Positions 8,170 to 35,696 of a stretch of 35,696 nucleotides of DNA are shown here, in pieces. This stretch comes from a bacterium (GTDB lineage Bacteria; Patescibacteriota; Minisyncoccia; Minisyncoccales; CG1-02-41-26). Where the stretch lies: positions 1 through 35,696 of the forward strand of contig JAGGVK010000053.1 of NCBI GenBank assembly GCA_021158045.1, read 5' to 3'. Under the pieces are notes generated by a model. It was not told the DNA's origin, made no database searches, and worked only from the letters and a program-made list of their open reading frames with translations. A program made the translations under genes and the position numbers. The number at the start of each line of letters is the position of its first letter. Positions within the stretch are counted from its first letter, which is position 1.

Positions 8170-8460
8170 ACCAATGAACAAAATCTCAAATCTCAAATCT
8201 CAAATCTCAAAATGACATCTCAAAATGCAAAATTAGAAAATTCAAAATGCAAAATTAGAAAAGCAAAATTTCAAATCTCAAATCTCAAAATGCAAAATTA
8301 GAATGCTTGGCTAAGCCAAGCAGCAAGAGAAAAAAGAGATTGCTTCGTCAGTCGCTTCGCTCCTTCCTCGCAATGACAGGGGGAGGAATCGCTTCGCTCA
8401 GGATGGCAATGTGGCGGATGGCGGAGCAATGAGCAAAGAGCAAAGAACATAAAAATTAGA
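8170..8460 (+). repeat. Composite intergenic repeat region between rpsL and rpsG
   Basis: No gene. In order it holds tandem TCTCAAA heptamers (about 8183-8225), repeats of CAAAATGCAAAATTAGAA, a 7-bp perfect hairpin GCTTGGC-TAA-GCCAAGC at 8305-8321, and a copy of a dispersed repeat (GATTGCTTCGTCAGTCGCTT through CGCAATGACAG, about 8337-8382) also found near 27540-27620, 27905-27985 and 35458-35500. Short GAGCAAAGAGCAAAG repeats follow. Its placement splits rpsL from rpsG, which are usually adjacent. Confidence 0.8.
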
Positions 8461-9024: not shown

Positions 9025-9084
9025 TGTTTTATGTTTCTCTAATTGATTTCTTATCTTATATATGCCAAGATTATATCCAAATAT

Positions 9085-9282
9085 ATGCCAAGATTATATC
9101 CAATAGAAAAAACAAGAGACATTGGTATTATCGCTCATATTGATGCGTCGCAGTTAACACTGTTCCCCAGAAACCCTCGGTTTCTGGCGGTCGGCCTTCG
9201 GCCTCCCTGTTTTCCTACACGGGAGGATACCCAATCCTCCCGACCCCTCCTTGTGCATCAATATTCGCTTTTCTCTAATTGA
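9085..9282 (+). pseudogene. Truncated duplicate of the fusA start fused to an element
   Basis: From ATG 9085 the first 20 codons repeat the EF-G N-terminus exactly ([20 protein letters not shown] plus Ala), then the frame runs into a palindromic element and stops after 65 residues, before the P-loop GK. The copied block 9034-9146 matches 9270-9381 over 113/112 nt with a single-base indel, so the 5' leader is duplicated too. If translated, the peptide would have no GTPase function. The intact gene follows downstream. Confidence 0.85.
9137..9264 (-). mobile_element. Palindromic element at the fusA 5' end
   Basis: The body 9147-9254 lies between ATATTGATGC (9137-9146, host fusA sequence) and its inverted copy GCATCAATAT (9255-9264). 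The 36 nt at 9185-9220 are identical to 19970-20005 in the rplN element, and CCCCAGAAACCC at 9165-9176 is also shared. Read on the minus strand it begins GGGGTCGGG after a short spacer and ends GCGAC against the host sequence. No coding capacity beyond chance. The class is not one I recognise; 'mobile element' is an inference from repetition and gene-end duplication. Confidence 0.65.
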
Positions 9283-9296
9283 TTTTTATCTTATAT

Positions 9297-9341
9297 ATGC
9301 CAAGATTATATCCAAATATATGCCAAGATTATATCCAATAG
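9297..9341 (+). promoter_or_regulatory. Tandemly duplicated fusA start site with overlapping 14-codon upstream frame
   Basis: The sequence around the start codon is repeated in tandem with a 23-bp period, giving two identical ATG contexts at 9297 and 9320. The first ATG reads 14 codons ([14 protein letters not shown]) and stops at 9341, overlapping the start of fusA out of frame. The same arrangement is present in the upstream duplicate (ATGs at 9062 and 9085). Confidence 0.5.
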
Positions 9342-11425
9342 AAAAAACAAGAGACATTGGTATTATCGCTCATATTGATGCTGGTAAAACTACAGTTACT
9401 GAACGTGTTTTGTTTTACACCGGAATATCCCATAAAATTGGAGAAGTCCATAATGGAGAAGCTATTATGGATTGGATGGCTCAAGAGAAGGAAAGGGGCA
9501 TTACTATTACGTCGGCTTCAACAACTTGTCATTGGATTCCTGAAGGCTTGGAGAAGAAAAAAGAAAACGAATATCAAATAAATATTATTGATACGCCCGG
9601 TCACATTGATTTTACAGTAGAAGTTCAAAGAAGTTTACGAGTTTTAGATGGAGCTATTGTTGTTTTTGACGGTGTAGCGGGAGTTGAGCCCCAGTCGGAA
9701 ACTGTTTGGAGGCAGGCTGATAAATTTAATGTTCCTAGAATTTGTTTTGTTAACAAAATGGATAGAATGGGCGCGGATTTTGACAGAAGTTTTCAGTCAA
9801 TCATAGAAAAATTGTCGCCAAATGCTGTAGCAGTCCAAATTCCTATCGGTAAAGAGGATAAATTTGAGGGAGTGATTGACCTTATTAAAATGAAAGCATT
9901 GTATTTTGAAGGTGACTTTGGACAGGATGTTGTTGAAAAGGAAATACCAGAAAATCTAAGAGAGCAAGCAGCCCAGGCAAGAAAGGAAATGTTAGAAAAG
10001 GTAGCAGCAGAAGATGCAACTTTATTAGAAAAGTTCCTTTCAAACAAGGAAATTACCATAGATGAAATCAGGAAAGTTTTAAGAAAGAGCACTTTAAATT
10101 ATAAGCTAATACCTGTTTTTTGCGGGTCTGCCCTTAAAGATAAAGGCATACAACCTTTGTTAGACGCTGTTTGCTATTACTTGCCAAGTCCTAATGACCT
10201 CCCTCCAGTGAAAGGCACGAATCCTTTAACCGGAGATTTTGAGGAAAGGAAACACTTGGATTCTGAACCTCTGGCTGCTTTGGTGTTTAAAATTGCAACT
10301 GACCCTTATGTAGGAGCGCTTAGTTATTTTAGGATTTATTCCGGCTATCTTAGAAAGGGTTCTTATGTTTTAAATACAACGACAGGCGTTAAAGAAAGAA
10401 TAGGTAGAATATTAAGAATGCATGCCAACCAGAGAGTTGAATTAGACGAGGCTTTTGCCGGAGACATTGTGGCTACTGTTGGTCTTAAGAAAACAAGCAC
10501 TGGACACACCCTTTGCGACCCGGCTCATCCCATTGTTTTAGAGAATATTGCTTTTCCTGAGCCTGTAATCTCGGTGAGGGTAGAGCCGAAAACTCGAGCT
10601 GACCAAGAGAAATTGGTAGTGGCTTTAAAGAGGCTATCAGAAGAAGACCCCACATTTCGTATTAAAGAGGATTTAGAAACCGGAGAGACTATAATTTCGG
10701 GCATGGGGGAATTGCACCTTGAAGTTTTAACTGATAGGATGAAAAGAGAGTTTGGTGTTGTAGCCAATGTTGGCAGGCCTCAAGTGGCTTATAAGGAAAC
10801 TGTTTGCAGCGAGAGCGAGGCTGAGGGAAAGTATATTCACCAATCAGGAGGTAGGGGGCAATATGGCCATGTGTGGCTAAGAATAAAGCCAAAGGAGAGG
10901 GGAGAAGGATTTGAGTTTAAAAATGCTATTAAAGGAGGAATTATTCCTCAAGAGTTTATCCCAGCAGTTAAGAAAGGAGTAGTAGAAGCCATGGGAAAGG
11001 GAGTTCTGGCAGGTTATCCAATAGTGGATGTGGAAGTTACATTGTACGACGGTTCTTTCCACGAAGTTGACTCTTCAGAAGTTGCTTTTAAAATTGCAGC
11101 CGCAGAAGCTTTGAAGTCTGCTTCCCAAAAGGCAAAGCCCGTATTATTGGAGCCGATAATGAAAATTGAAGTTATTGTTCCTTCAGAATTCTTTGGAGAT
11201 GTTATTAGTGATTTAAACAGGAGGAGAGGCATTATTGAGGAGACAAAGGATAGGCTTAGCTTAAAAATAATTGACGCGAAAGTTCCCTTAGCGGAGATGT
11301 TTGGCTACGCTACTGGTTTGAGGTCCTTGACTCAAGGGAGAGGAACGTTTACAATGGAATTTGACAGATATGAGAAAGTACCGGAGAATATAAGTCAGGA
11401 GATAATTGAAGGTAAGAGGAAATAG
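9320..11425 (+). CDS. fusA: Elongation factor G
   Basis: Translocation GTPase of 701 residues, normal length. G1 [13 protein letters not shown] (near residue 18), G3 [11 protein letters not shown] and G4 [10 protein letters not shown] are intact, as are domain IV/V features ([13 protein letters not shown], then [20 protein letters not shown]). Start 9320 gives [14 protein letters not shown]; a frame extension to 9251 would read through element sequence and is rejected. Both ends carry elements: a partial start copy lies upstream (9034-9146) and a partial, recoded end copy downstream (11659-11733). Usually tuf follows directly; here an element and a Phd-like gene intervene. Confidence 0.96.
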
Positions 11426-11441
11426 TAAATTGAGAAAAGTT

Positions 11442-11670
11442 AAATTCCATTGTTCAGATAGGGGTCGGGGAAGAAGAATTCTTCCCCGTGGCGGAAATCT
11501 CTCTCCAAATCGCCAAAGGCGATTTGGAGGCCACATGAGGTCTCCAATTCCGCTGAAAGCGGAATTGGAGTAATAGCAGGGGTTTTAAGGAGCGAAGCGA
11601 AGCGAGGCTGAGATTGTCGAAGCCGAGCGCCTGCCAAAGGCAGGAGGAGCAGAGCGACACAATGGAATTT
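11442..11670 (+). mobile_element. Palindromic element at the fusA 3' end
   Basis: AAATTCCATTGT (11442-11453), an inverted copy of fusA sequence, precedes a 205-bp body; ACAATGGAATTT (11659-11670) follows it. The body starts GGGGTCGGGG at 11461 and ends GCGAC at 11654-11658. Three perfect hairpins lie inside: 11467-11487 (GGGGAAGAA/TTCTTCCCC), 11503-11529 (CTCCAAATCGCC/GGCGATTTGGAG) and 11542-11570 (CTCCAATTCCGCT/AGCGGAATTGGAG). The latter two and the tail GAGCGCCTGCC...GGCAGGAGG align with the reverse complement of the rplN element. No gene. Confidence 0.7.
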
Positions 11671-11733
11671 GACAGATATGAGAAAGTACCGGAGAATATT
11701 GCCCAGGAAATCATAGAAGGCAAAAGAAAGTAA
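11659..11733 (+). pseudogene. Duplicate of the fusA 3' end, synonymously recoded
   Basis: In frame it encodes the last 24 residues of EF-G ([19 protein letters not shown] then EGKRK, stop). The first 41 nt equal 11351-11391 exactly. After that nearly every codon differs from the true fusA end, but only one residue changes (Ala for Ser) and the stop is TAA instead of TAG. It is cut off from the gene body by the element. Confidence 0.85.
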
Positions 11734-11813: not shown

Positions 11814-11826
11814 TTGGTTAACAATT

Positions 11827-12120
11827 ATGGAACTAGAAGACATTAGGCAGTTTGTTAATTCTAACAATGAAAAAATTATCTTAGTTGAACATGGAGAGCC
11901 AACAGTTGTTCTGATGTCTTATGAAACCTATAAGGAGTCTTTTGGCGGTAATTTTCAGGAGGGGGAGGGGAAAAGAAATGAAACAAATACAGAGGTGAAC
12001 TTAGCAGAGAAGAAGCCTTTTTTCGAATCTAACGAGCCTGAAGATTTAGTCCCTGGTGATTCTGAATTAGAAGAAGGTGAAAATTATGGAAGTATTTCTA
12101 TTGATGATTTGCCGTTTTAG
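11827..12120 (+). CDS. Phd/YefM-like antitoxin-fold protein with acidic tail, no toxin partner
   Basis: Ninety-seven residues. The first 38 (MELEDIRQFVNSNNEKIILV, then EHGEPTVVLMSYETYKES) match the core of Phd/YefM antitoxins, where this fold binds DNA and the following segment wraps a toxin. The rest is polar and strongly acidic (EPEDLVPGDSELEEGENYG) and ends SISIDDLPF. No toxin-like frame lies next to it: fusA is upstream and tuf downstream. It is more likely a stand-alone regulator, or an orphan antitoxin, than half of a toxin-antitoxin pair. The promoter for tuf lies just after its stop. Confidence 0.65.
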   Translation: MELEDIRQFVNSNNEKIILVEHGEPTVVLMSYETYKESFGGNFQEGEGKRNETNTEVNLAEKKPFFESNEPEDLVPGDSELEEGENYGSISIDDLPF

Positions 12121-19757: not shown

Positions 19758-19789
19758 TGGCTGAGCCCGCTTTAGCGGGACGAAGGAAT

Positions 19790-20062
19790 ATGATTCAACC
19801 AGGAACAAAATTGAAAGTAGCTGATGTCGCTTGCCCTCCTGCCTTCGGTAGGCGCTCACTTCATTCGCTTCGCTCCCCAGAAACCCAGCTTTTACTCCAA
19901 TTCCGCTTCAGCGGAATTGGAGGCCACTTGTGGTCTCCAAATTCGCTTTTTGCGAATTTGGAGTATGTTTGGCGGTCGGCCTTCGGCCTCCCTGTTTTCC
20001 TACACAGGGGAGAATTCTTCTCCCCTGACACCCCTTTGCATCAGCTACTTTTGCCTTATTGA
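19790..20062 (+). pseudogene. Truncated duplicate of the rplN start fused to an element
   Basis: ATG 19790 opens the first 12 codons of uL14 exactly (MIQPGTKLKVAD) and then reads element sequence to a stop at 20062 (90 residues, no domain). The block 19787-19825 is identical to 20105-20143. The sequence upstream of this copy differs from that upstream of the true gene and holds a separate short hairpin (CCCGCTTTAGCGGG near 19766-19779) like the one at 119-137. Confidence 0.85.
19814..20051 (-). mobile_element. Palindromic element at the rplN 5' end
   Basis: The body 19827-20038 is bounded by AAAGTAGCTGATG (19814-19826, host rplN sequence plus one base) and its inverted copy CATCAGCTACTTT (20039-20051). 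Inside are hairpins CCAATTCCGCT/AGCGGAATTGG near 19895-19920, CTCCAAATTCGC/GCGAATTTGGAG near 19935-19963 and GGGGAGAA/TTCTCCCC near 20007-20024. It shares 36 identical nt (19970-20005) with the fusA 5' element, and its hairpin pair and tail align in reverse with the fusA 3' element. Read on the minus strand it begins GGGGTGTCAGGGG and ends GCGAC against host sequence. No gene. Confidence 0.7.
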
Positions 20063-20107
20063 CTTTAACTGAATTTAAATTTATTTTAGAAACATTATAG
20101 ACTAAAT

Positions 20108-20476
20108 ATGATTCAACCAGGAACAAAATTGAAAGTAGCTGATAATAGCGGAGCTAAAATTGTGCAGTGTTTTAATTTGCCCGGTGGCACGAGGAAACGT
20201 TATGCTCAACTTGGCGATGTAATTGTAGCTGCAGTTAAGAAAGCTGAGCCAAGAAAAGAAGTTAAACTTCACAGTATTGTAAGGGCAGTTATTGTTAGGC
20301 AAAAAAGAGAATATAAAAGAGAAGATGGCTCATATATTAGATTTGGCGATAATGCTTGTGTAATTTTAGCTGATAAAAAAAATCCAAAAGGAAATAGGAT
20401 TTTAGGGCCTATCCCGAGAGAATTAAAGAGGAAAGGATTTGAAAAAATAGTTACAATGGCAAAGGAAGTAGTTTAG
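20108..20476 (+). CDS. rplN: Large ribosomal subunit protein uL14
   Basis: 50S protein of 122 residues at the subunit interface and the docking site of RsfS-type factors. The start MIQPGTKLKVADNSGAKIVQ, the segment KREYKREDGSYIRFGDNACV and the end GPIPRELKRKGFEKIVTMA match. Full length and intact; the first 39 nt of the start region are also present in the upstream truncated copy. No Shine-Dalgarno; ACTAAAT precedes the ATG. Confidence 0.96.
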   Translation: MIQPGTKLKVADNSGAKIVQCFNLPGGTRKRYAQLGDVIVAAVKKAEPRKEVKLHSIVRAVIVRQKREYKREDGSYIRFGDNACVILADKKNPKGNRILGPIPRELKRKGFEKIVTMAKEVV

Positions 20477-27483: not shown

Positions 27484-28030
27484 GTTCTTAAATCAACAAG
27501 TTTTCTGGCATTTTTTCTCTCTGTCGTTACAATGAGCCTTCCTCTCTTGTCATTGCGAGGAGTCTTCCTCTCTTGTCATTGCGAGGAAGGAGCGCAGCGA
27601 CTGACGAAGCAATCTCTTACGCCTGTCATCACAAGAGCTGTAGCATCCCTTAGCCACGAGCGAAGCGTGATGGGACAGGCAGTAAAAATGAAAGATGAAA
27701 AGTGAAAAATGAAAAACTAAAATCTAAAATTAAAAGAAACTTTGCATTTTGAATTGTCATTTTGAGATTTGAGATTTGAGATTTGAGATTTAACTGGGGT
27801 TCTTCGCTTAACGGCTCAGAATGACAATTGGTAGTTGTTCCATAACGAAGCAATGAGATTGCCGCGTCGTCCCGCCTTCGGCGGAACTCCTCGCAATGAC
27901 AAAAAGGAGCATCATTGTGAGGAACCTCCCTCTCTTGTCATTGCGAGGAAGGAGCGCAGCGACTGACGAAGCAATCTCTTTCCCTCTGTCATCTGAGCGA
28001 AGCGAAGTATCTCCAGTATTTTATTTTTTA
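27484..28030 (+). repeat. Intergenic repeat cluster between map and galT
   Basis: No gene. Two near-identical copies of a dispersed repeat (CTTGTCATTGCGAGGAAGGA ... GACGAAGCAATCTCTT, about 27566-27617 and 27931-27982) and a partial copy (27537-27552) lie here. Between them come tandem GAGATTT heptamers (about 27765-27790) and a block (about 27793-27905) that is the inverted counterpart of 35565-35680 with only scattered differences, including the hairpin CCCGCCTTCGGCGG. Confidence 0.85.
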
Positions 28031-28079: not shown

Positions 28080-29189
28080 ATGAAAAATCGCTTTCATCAA
28101 AAAAATTCTAAAAAAACTCATCATCTTAACTCGCGTAAGAAACGAACTCTACAAGAGAATAGCATATCCAAAAGAGCGAATTTTCCATCTGAGCTTCGGT
28201 TTGACCCTATGGGTAGAGACTGGGTGGTAATTGCTACAGGTCGGGCAAAGCGTCCAGAAACTCTCAAATGGGCTGAGCAAACAGAAGAAAAAGTGTCTGA
28301 ATCGGATTGTCCTTTTTGCCATATGGAAACTCAGAAATTTCCTACTTTAATCTTTTCCCATGGCAAGAGAGTTTTGAGGTCTAAAAATGTTCCAAAAAAT
28401 TGGACAACAGTTTCTATTCCTAATAAATTTCCTGCCTTCCAATCCTCAGATTCTTTAGGCGAGAGAAGAGAAGGGCCTTATAAGATAATGAGAGCAGTTG
28501 GTTTCCATGAGGTAGTTATAACTCGCGACCATAAAAGGCATATCGCAAAGTTATCTATATCTGAAATAAAAGAATTAATTGATGTTTATCATTTGAGATA
28601 TTCGTTTTTGATGCGCCAAAAGCGTGTTAATTATGTTTCTATATTCTGTAATCATGGGGTAAGGGCTGGTGCTTCTATTGCCCATCCTCATTCTCAAATT
28701 ATAGCTGTTCCTCTTATTGACTCTGATTTGAGAAAAGCCCTTAATAATGCCAGAGAATATTATAAAATTCATAAGAAATGCGTTTACTGTGTGAGTAATG
28801 ATTGGGAGAGAAAACAAAAGAAAAGGATTGTTTTTGAAAATGAGAAGTTTTTAGCTATTTGCCCTTTTGCTTCTAAATCAGCTTTTGAAGTTATTATTTC
28901 TCCTAAGAAACATTCTTCCCGATTTGACGAGATAACAGAAGAGGAAAAATTTTCTTTGGCTGAAGCTTTTAAAGTTGTTTTATCAAAACTTGACAAGGGA
29001 TTAAATAATCCACCTTATAATTTTTATTTACATAGCGCTCCATGCGATGGTAAAAATTATAACTTTTACCATTGGCACTGGACAATTTTGCCAAAGACAA
29101 CTACCCCTGCCGGCTTCGAATTAGGTGTGAGAATAGAAATTTCTACCATTGAACCAGAAAAAGCGGCAGCGTATCTTAGGAAGCAATAA
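28080..29189 (+). CDS. galT: Galactose-1-phosphate uridylyltransferase family protein
   Basis: HIT-superfamily nucleotidyl transferase of 369 residues. In the Leloir pathway it swaps UMP between UDP-glucose and galactose-1-phosphate. The nucleophile motif AHPHSQ is at residues 201-206 (H204 expected to carry UMP), and the second-half motif FYHWHWTILPK is near residue 330. Two zinc-type pairs, CPFC (near residue 77) and CVYC (near residue 238), are present. A basic 35-residue N-terminal stretch precedes the FDPMGRDWVVIATGRAKRP core. It could instead be an ADP-glucose phosphorylase-type relative; no galK or galE is nearby. Its 3' end is copied in inverted form 68 bp downstream. Confidence 0.82.
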   Translation: MKNRFHQKNSKKTHHLNSRKKRTLQENSISKRANFPSELRFDPMGRDWVVIATGRAKRPETLKWAEQTEEKVSESDCPFCHMETQKFPTLIFSHGKRVLRSKNVPKNWTTVSIPNKFPAFQSSDSLGERREGPYKIMRAVGFHEVVITRDHKRHIAKLSISEIKELIDVYHLRYSFLMRQKRVNYVSIFCNHGVRAGASIAHPHSQIIAVPLIDSDLRKALNNAREYYKIHKKCVYCVSNDWERKQKKRIVFENEKFLAICPFASKSAFEVIISPKKHSSRFDEITEEEKFSLAEAFKVVLSKLDKGLNNPPYNFYLHSAPCDGKNYNFYHWHWTILPKTTTPAGFELGVRIEISTIEPEKAAAYLRKQ

Positions 29190-29244
29190 AACAATAAAGG
29201 TAATAAGATAATAAGAAGTTTAATGGTTCAATGGTAGAAATTTC
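29136..29244 (+). repeat. 21-bp inverted copy of the galT 3' end
   Basis: GAAATTTCTACCATTGAACC(A) at 29136-29156 inside galT is perfectly complementary to 29224-29244 after the stop. The following sequence to about 29335 is GC-rich with AGCGAGGCGAAG repeated (about 29287 and 29320). It recalls the inverted host copies at the fusA and rplN elements, but no direct copy of galT follows. Confidence 0.8.
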
Positions 29245-29354
29245 GGTTTCCCCCGTAGTGGACGCCACCCACCCGCCACCCTAACAGCGAGGCGAAGCCC
29301 GCTTTCGTTAAAACTTCAGCGAGGCGAAGAGGTTATCATGCATTTAACAATAAT

Positions 29355-30137
29355 ATGATGCCATTAATTATTGCGAATTTAAAGTGTAATCCTTCTACTC
29401 TAAGAGAGGCCAGGCGCCTTTTTATTTCTTTAAAAAAAGGATTGGGAAATATTAGGAAAGCACAAGTTGTTGTTTGTCCTCCTTTTTTATATATTCCAGA
29501 ACTTATTAAAATATTCGGCAGGGCTGGTAAGATAAAATTTGGCGCCCAGGATTGTTTTTGGGAAAAAGAAGGCGCCTTTACAGGAGAAGTTTCTCCTCTT
29601 TCTCTCAAAAGCATTGGAGTAAGCTTTGTTATTTTAGGTCATTCCGAGAGAAGAATAAATTTTGCAGAGAGCGATGAAATGATAAATAAAAAATTAAAAG
29701 CAGCATTATCTGTGGGTCTTTTGCCTATTTTGTGCGTTGGGGAGACGAAAAAGGAAAGGAGAGAGGGAAGAACTTTTCAAGTTTTGAAGAAGGAACTCCG
29801 AGTTGGCTTAAAAGGCGTTTCTGCCAAAAACGCTTCAAAAATAATCTTGGCTTACGAACCAATTTGGGCTATTGGGTCGGGAAAGCCCTGTGAGCTAAAT
29901 GAGATTATAGTAGAGGTGCTTTCCATAAGAAAAATTATTGCTGCTTTGTATAGAAAGAAAGTTGCCAGAGAAGTAAAAGTAGTTTATGGGGGCAGTATTG
30001 ATGCAGAGAATATATCTAAATATAGCACTGACTCTAATTTACAAGGTTTTTTGATAGGGGGGGCTTCTTTGAACTCTCGGGAGTTTATGAAAATTGTTGG
30101 AACAATAGTTAAAAAAAATTCGGATTTTAACTTTTGA
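29355..30137 (+). CDS. tpiA: Triosephosphate isomerase
   Basis: Glycolytic enzyme interconverting dihydroxyacetone phosphate and glyceraldehyde-3-phosphate; 260 residues, normal. Catalytic residues are visible: N8 and K10 in IIANLKCNP, H96 in ILGHSERR and E168 in AYEPIWAIGSGKP. Phosphate-binding ends VYGGSI and GFLIGGASL are present. Two adjacent ATGs (29355 and 29358) are possible starts. It lies between galT and the YkuK-family gene on the same strand, with 13 bp to the latter. Confidence 0.94.
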   Translation: MMPLIIANLKCNPSTLREARRLFISLKKGLGNIRKAQVVVCPPFLYIPELIKIFGRAGKIKFGAQDCFWEKEGAFTGEVSPLSLKSIGVSFVILGHSERRINFAESDEMINKKLKAALSVGLLPILCVGETKKERREGRTFQVLKKELRVGLKGVSAKNASKIILAYEPIWAIGSGKPCELNEIIVEVLSIRKIIAALYRKKVAREVKVVYGGSIDAENISKYSTDSNLQGFLIGGASLNSREFMKIVGTIVKKNSDFNF

Positions 30138-35199: not shown

Positions 35200-35391
35200 A
35201 TTGTTATTCTGAGCCGTTAGGCGAAGAACCCCAGTTAAATCTCAAATCTCAAATCTCAAATCTCAAAATCACCCTGAAGCAGAACAAGTTCGCTACAGGG
35301 CAGGCAATTCGAAATTCAAAATTACATAGAAAGTTCTAAATCCGAAATCCCAAACAAAACTAAATGAGAAATCAAAAATCAAAAATCTAAA
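35200..35391 (+). repeat. AT-rich repeats after the last gene
   Basis: No gene. It opens with TTATTCTGAGCCGTTAGGCG...CCCCAG (about 35203-35233), then tandem AAATCTC heptamers (35237-35268), then short AAATTCAAAATT-type stretches. The opening block recurs at 35645-35675 and, inverted, near 27793-27825. Confidence 0.75.
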
Positions 35392-35422: not shown

Positions 35423-35696
35423 AAAGTAGCGCTCCACTCAGGATGACAGAGGAAAAGGGATTGCTTCGTCAGTCGCTTCGCTCCTTCCTCGCAATGACAA
35501 GAGGGAGAATCGCTTCGCTCCTTCCTCGCAATGACAGGGAGGGAGAGAACTGCAATAACCTCCTTTTTGTCATTGCGAGGAGCTCCGCCGAAGGCGGGAC
35601 GACGCGGCAATCTCATAGCTTCGTCATGGAACGACCACCAATTGTCATTCTGAGCCGTTAGGCGAAGAACCCCAGTTAAATCTCAAATCTCAAATC
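35423..35696 (-). repeat. Dispersed repeat cluster at the window end
   Basis: A full copy of the GATTGCTTCGTCAGTCGCTT...CGCAATGACA repeat (about 35459-35500), a partial copy (35509-35537), then a block of about 130 bp (35565-35696) that is the inverted counterpart of about 27775-27905, including GCCGAAGGCGGGACGACGCG and the final AAATCTC heptamers. Open frames here are chance. Confidence 0.8.

Follow-up and report, generated by a model that had tools for sequence, protein, structure and literature searches.

The DNA between galT and tpiA in the source genome is probably what is left of a single, now decayed insertion of a small mobile element that is non-coding and rich in hairpins. Taken alone, this feature is a minor fossil; it is valuable as a pointer to an apparently undescribed family of gene-less, very small mobile elements in Patescibacteria. 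Positions are those of the window, by which we mean the whole stretch of 35,696 nucleotides analysed, except where another contig is named. The source genome (G000) is the sole member of its genus among the genomes compared.

An inverted repeat at the end of galT

The galT coding sequence, taken from the ORF list and from tblastn comparison to relatives, occupies positions 28080 to 29189 of the forward strand and terminates in EISTIEPEKAAAYLRKQ before the stop codon. In relatives, galT terminates in EISTIEPEKAAEYLRKQ, and the EISTIEPE motif at this end is conserved. A repeat search found a 26-nt inverted repeat (92% complementary) with arms at 29136-29161 and 29219-29244, spaced 57 nt apart. 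Self-match also recovered its perfect 21-nt core (29136-29156 and 29224-29244), and both procedures thus reproduced the exact 21-bp inverted copy of galT coding DNA that a first-pass annotation had placed at 29224-29244. The repeat is far above chance: the longest perfect inverted repeat within 28900-29599 is 21 nt, and 40 dinucleotide shuffles gave a mean of 10.8 and a maximum of 14. Directly 3' of the inverted arm lies GC-rich DNA with repeated sequence (29245-29329), as that annotation had also described; CAGCGAGGCGAAG occurs in it twice (29285-29297 and 29317-29329).

The predicted RNA fold of positions 29120-29354 has an energy of -69.6 kcal/mol (z = -5.7), and the perfect stem is formed and dominates the fold. 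A strong hairpin over the galT stop codon had been anticipated from the sequence; the strong stem is indeed predicted, but the stop codon is located in the loop between the arms, outside the stem. The stem added to the end of the galT mRNA is probably a by-product.

The gap between galT and tpiA in relatives

The coding sequence of tpiA (triosephosphate isomerase; 29355-30137, forward strand, from the ORF list and relatives) begins 165 bp downstream of galT. The corresponding gap is 0-3 bp in L009, L011, L013, L014 and L021 and 43 bp in L008; it is longer in a few relatives (e.g. L015, L017, L022, L026), and some have no tpiA nearby. Because the gap is only 0-43 bp in many relatives, the 165 bp are read as an insertion. 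No inverted repeat like that at galT was found in the relatives examined. The repeat is therefore not an old conserved feature, and we take the arm at 29136-29161 (forward strand; 21 nt perfect at 29136-29156, EISTIEPE in relatives) to be X, the native galT end and template, and the arm at 29219-29244 (perfect at 29224-29244) to be X', its inverted copy.

Positions 29250-29329 matched C6:10351-10430 of the same genome with 91% identity over 80 bp, and the repeat unit at galT matched C9:177-221 with 96% identity over 45 bp. Further partial matches of the GC-rich DNA were found at C6 again and at C26, also in this genome. The C6 copy is complete and led on to a larger family.

Architecture and distribution of the element family

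The core architecture was derived from an alignment (A1) of 31 copies. In element orientation, stem B (TTAGAAACC-NNN-GGTTTCTAA) is followed by stem C, which is variable, then by CTGTTTTCCTACACGGG and stem D, and last by GACCCC and a pyrimidine tail; our covariance model R1 covers these three stems, with stem C variable, and the GACCCC tail. Pairwise covariation was seen in both stem B and stem D. In addition, the tail after GAC mirrors stem D, in that the purine arm, the arm that forms Watson-Crick pairs with it and the tail vary jointly as C.G-C or T.A-T (A1 columns 69-76 / 85-92 / 96-103); column 72/89/99, for example, holds 13 G-C-C and 14 A-T-T triples. Matching triples numbered 102 of 124, against 62 +/- 6 on permutation; when permutation was confined within genomes they numbered 80 of 96, against 55 +/- 6, and none of 20,000 permutations reached as high. 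Covariation of this kind is what an intramolecular triple helix would leave behind and suggests a possible triplex. A candidate third strand, parallel-complementary to the purine arm of the hairpin, is thus found in the family, and this part is absent at galT.

In this Patescibacteria order the covariance model matched 23 genomes out of 60; the source genome had 13 matches, and the largest number in any other was 28. Of 380 genomes from across the phylum, 3 contained a short exact motif, and 2 of these belong to this order; the family is nearly absent from the rest of the phylum. A search of the whole window with Rfam gave only RNase P and two tRNAs and no element match, none of five element loci came near an Rfam gathering score, and a viral collection gave no match to the 22-mer core. 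A search of the literature, with subscription journals and preprints outside its range, found no account of elements like these from Patescibacteria or the Candidate Phyla Radiation.

Several other placements were noticed. The 22-bp G/C-rich module GGACGCCACCCACCCKCCRCCC (29258-29280 in the window) recurs in L044 (leuS), L035/L047 (mnmA-like), L036/L041 and L051, apparently also within protein genes, and the copy in the Nealsonbacteria leuS seems to be in frame; the viral collection does not contain this module. Some genomes have the element immediately 5' of start codons (L052, L060, L063, L072, L103-L106, L112, L113), and these copies have a common junction, CATAGTGGTAATAC..AGTCGC (reverse complement ending in ..GTATTACCACTATG). 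At L057 and L067 the element abuts exactly the 5' end of a tRNA gene, and at L061, L163 and L167 it is within or next to tRNA T-arm sequences. Contigs often terminate in the element.

The insertion signature

Comparison of the two flanks by blastn gave, for copies that interrupt genes, the layout X1, element, X', X2 at 13 loci, with boundaries placed by hand; more loci were added later. X1 and X2, direct copies 21-113 bp long, both end at one base, and this shared end coincides, exactly or within a few bases, with the element start on the X1 side. The bases that adjoin the insertion point are repeated in inverted orientation as X', in most cases over 9-19 nt, and X2 runs on into the gene, which is thereby rebuilt intact.

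Intact copies on the forward strand of the window are found at the fusA 5' end (9034-9381: X1 9034-9146, element 9147-9253, X' about 9255-9264, X2 9270-9381 into the gene; R1 match 9165-9252, E 1.3e-19), at the rplN 5' end (19787-20143: X1 about 19787-19826, element 19827-20038, X' 20039-20051, X2 20105-20143; model match 19935-20037) and, with the element reversed, at the fusA 3' end (11351-11733: X2 11351-11425, X' 11439-11453, element 11454-11658, X1 11659-11733; model match 11456-11529 on the minus strand). The orientation of the element relative to the gene is opposite at 5' and 3' insertions. A self-splicing intron, considered in view of genes in which X1 and X2 are both coding, was rejected because opposite orientations leave no single RNA strand able to serve.

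With left boundaries set automatically, and some of them misplaced, flank statistics on 47 copies gave a mean of 3.70 for inverted arms anchored at the boundaries, compared with 2.75 on permutation (10,000 permutations, maximum 3.47); arm scores of at least 9 were found in 4 of the 47 true flank pairs and in 0 of 2162 mismatched pairs. Direct copies at the same boundaries averaged 9.04, compared with 5.28 permuted (maximum 7.68). An empty site is seen at trxB-eno, which is interrupted in G009 and uninterrupted in its congeners G016 and G021. Sequence comparison shows that the target is duplicated, that an inverted copy adjoins the element and that the boundaries are precise.

A reused site in fusA and divergence of X1 from X2

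The 3' end of fusA is interrupted at the same codon in G000, G044 (L215), G457 (L213) and G479 (L214). This reused site, within codons F-T-M-E-F-D, is thus shared by four genera of three families, which carry differing element sequences. Synonymous changes predominate in the older X1/X2 pairs: over eight pairs, 56 codons differ synonymously and 15 non-synonymously; the individual ratios are 9/1, 19/3 and 5/0 for fusA and 8/0 for rnhA. The synonymous pattern at fusA, rnhA and L064 is not what plain duplication with later decay of X1 would give, and these codon comparisons disfavour such a history there. Since the differences at these loci are mostly synonymous in both copies, a further step seems to be needed, e.g. 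allele exchange between species, and exchange of element-bearing alleles by homologous recombination would explain both the reused site and the synonymous bias. Neutral decay of X1 stays compatible with trxB, L114 and L120, and the third-position excess over all eight pairs (62 of 86) still fits selection on X2 with X1 neutral (P = 0.17).

By inspection, X1 and X2 differ almost only synonymously at L178 (the rnhA 5' end in G039), L064 and fusA 3', and both look like functional coding ends.

The galT copy

The galT-tpiA gap can be read along the forward strand in the terms above. The sequence AACAATAA directly follows the galT stop codon (29190-29197) and is succeeded by an AT-rich junction (29198-29218) and by X'. 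Joined directly to X' is one half of stem D (29245-29257, minus strand, reverse complement TACGGGGGAAACC), so that the element half starts with GGTTTCCCCCGTAG; a G/C-rich module, GTGGACGCCACCCACCCGCCACC, comes next (29258-29280), which is inserted also in unrelated contexts in other Patescibacteria, and then the repeat unit that contains CAGCGAGGCGAAG (29281-29329), truncated relative to the C6 copy. The right junction (29330-29354) includes a second, identical AACAATAA at 29346-29353, directly before tpiA.

The element ends after 29329, at about half its expected length, and its remains are the 5' half of stem D with repeat units of the stem-C side; the complete core with stems B and D is absent. 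Model R1 (positions 49-77) accordingly gave only a weak partial match, to 29262-29233 on the minus strand (E 0.11, filters off, 401 bases), because most of the core is missing, and the tie to the family is drawn instead from the C6 and C9 matches and from the layout. Of the insertion layout, galT retains X2, X' and half an element; X1 is missing, save for a possible footprint of 8-9 nt. The same junction type, with half of stem D joined to X', occurs at L120, and at C6 with another stem sequence.

The first-pass annotation had likened the galT end to half of the fusA 3' pattern without the final direct copy. This holds for the order X2-X'-element, which is found intact, with X1, at fusA 3' and 12 other loci, but not for the structure of the element end, which is nearer to the permuted subtype of C6 and L120 than to the fusA/rplN subtype. 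Its suggestion of a decayed or half-completed event is well supported, given the 91% match to a complete copy; the GC-rich segment does recur elsewhere (C6, C9 and C26), and in many relatives, all of them outside the genus, galT runs directly into tpiA. A plain terminator conserved across many species would have spoken against that annotation; the relatives show no sign of one, as they lack such a repeat.

A model for the insertion

We propose that a staggered break or pair of nicks in the target would provide 3' ends, to one of which element DNA is joined. The far end of the element could then fold back on the near end, the hairpins at its ends placing the 3' terminus beside the flank, and prime copying of this adjacent flank, which would yield X'. 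The new 3' end might re-anneal at an upstream microhomology on the other strand and copy forward to give X2. An overlap of X' and X2 would be expected, because synthesis of X' would stop and restart at microhomology, and overlaps of 2-9 nt are seen at five loci (L053, L107, L114, L118, L120). Where a start or stop codon lies within X, X2 would rebuild the gene, and for this reason the gene would survive; insertions in essential genes would survive only with a start or stop codon in X, and a bias to gene ends would thus arise without targeting. That X' is instead a pre-existing targeting arm, or guide, is less likely, as its length varies and a different gene is copied each time.

A complete event at a 3' end would read, in gene direction, gene-X2-X'-element (reversed)-X1-downstream, as at fusA 3', and galT would read gene-X2-X'-(half element)-tpiA. 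We suppose that later deletion removed the element's outer half together with almost the whole displaced X1, leaving at most AACAATAAT before tpiA. The original gap would have been AACAATAAT, duplicated along with X, with only the outer end of X1 kept. The two copies of AACAATAA stand at exactly both places so predicted, after the stop codon and before tpiA; this pair is a probable remnant of the direct duplication, although, being 8 AT-rich bases, it is of supporting value only.

As for what moves the element, the source genome (97.9% complete) gave no matches to Y1_Tnp (PF01797) or RVT_1 (PF00078). The element-rich genomes G014, G023, G039 and G042 likewise lack both, and RVT_1 is also absent from G009, G026, G038, G043, G051 and G059. 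The mover may belong to some other enzyme family, or may act from another cell.

Tentatively, we would go further and suggest a new class of element, gene-less and possibly triplex-forming, that inserts near gene ends, copies the flank by folding back and duplicates the gene end, its alleles spreading by recombination, with galT as a fossil of the process. If so, the element sits without harm in essential genes (fusA, rplN, rpsO, rpsJ, rnhA and tRNA genes), and its alleles pass between species by homologous recombination, which leaves two gene ends with mostly synonymous differences. The more general reading, of galT as a decayed insertion, already explains a puzzling inverted repeat as a fossil in which the order of events can be read. 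The signature, a long direct copy and a short inverted one, points to repair of a break by fold-back synthesis and to a route by which DNA can enter essential translation genes without destroying them. Predictions for other genomes are microhomology between X' and X2, the triple covariation and the reused fusA site.

Alternative explanations

Two unrelated events could have been superimposed at galT, a template-switch (quasipalindrome) mutation that made X' and a later insertion of an element fragment beside it. A passage of PMC8794818 indicates that template switching alone can produce perfect hairpins, and no X1 survives at galT as proof of a joint event. We nevertheless consider this unlikely: X' directly adjoins the element end at galT and at other loci, and host-derived arms at element boundaries exceed those in permutations.

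Short, palindromic, dispersed and non-coding sequences also bring to mind repeats of the REP/REPIN type, with a RAYT (Y1 HUH) transposase as their mover, or else a retroelement. Target duplications of variable length are typical of target-primed reverse transcription, and those observed here do vary in length. Given the absence of both Y1_Tnp and RVT_1 from the source genome and the four element-rich genomes named above, either origin is quite improbable.

There is very little to recommend a conserved galT transcription terminator or mRNA-stabilising hairpin kept by selection. The strong predicted stem would suit it, but the loop is 57 nt long and contains the stop codon, and the short-loop GC-rich stem with a T-run that marks an intrinsic terminator is not found here; terminator prediction called no terminator-like site at the repeat, and relatives, in which galT runs into tpiA, lack the structure.

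An assembly or amplification chimera is scarcely credible: the element is a repeat, often at contig ends, and fold-back chimeras of whole-genome amplification do yield inverted copies, but the layout recurs in many genera with exact element boundaries, fusA is interrupted at one common site in four genera, and many substitutions now separate X1 from X2, which is impossible for a laboratory chimera.

Comparison with known systems

The insertion we favour shares with template-switch mutations a short inverted copy of neighbouring DNA able to form a perfect hairpin. It differs in that the inverted copy edges a dispersed GC-rich element, and that intact copies then add a direct copy of the gene end. 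Like MITEs, REP/BIME/REPIN sequences and Rickettsia palindromic elements, the present elements are small, non-coding, palindromic, dispersed and modular, and some lie within genes. In contrast to these, Type 1 copies carry no element-derived terminal inverted repeats, target duplications are long and of varying length (21-113 bp), and there is the extra inverted copy X'; the inverted arms are host sequence, so that neither the terminal inverted repeats nor the fixed short target duplication of a MITE is found. REP/REPIN systems with RAYT differ also in their Y1 transposase, which G000 lacks. A possible parallel is E. coli icd, where insertion of prophage e14 or phage 21 supplies or creates a replacement for the gene end, differing from it mostly at synonymous positions, and the gene works; the present element, by comparison, has no integrase or other genes, is about 70-210 bp long and uses many target genes.

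The TM motif (Holder et al. 2015, PMC4666352) is likewise a dispersed GC-rich repeat for which a three-stranded hairpin of a single strand is possible. It has been linked to genome instability in bacteria, and in E. coli it is reported to be always intergenic and unassociated with mobile elements (PMC4666352). Here, by contrast, the possible triplex is one component of a larger element whose target is duplicated, its strands covary between copies, and the galT copy lacks the third strand.

Other features of the window

Another dispersed intergenic repeat, cattgcgaggaaggagcgcagcgactgacgaagcaatctctt, was noted at 27530-27985 and 35460-35640, and short AT-rich tandem-like runs (ctcaaatctcaaatctcaaa) occur in several intergenic regions (8180-8290, 27700-27800, 35220-35270). 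A small ORF between fusA and tuf (11826-12120, MELEDIRQFVNSNNEKIILVEHGEPTVVLMSYETYK...) resembles, by eye, an antitoxin of the Phd/YefM type.
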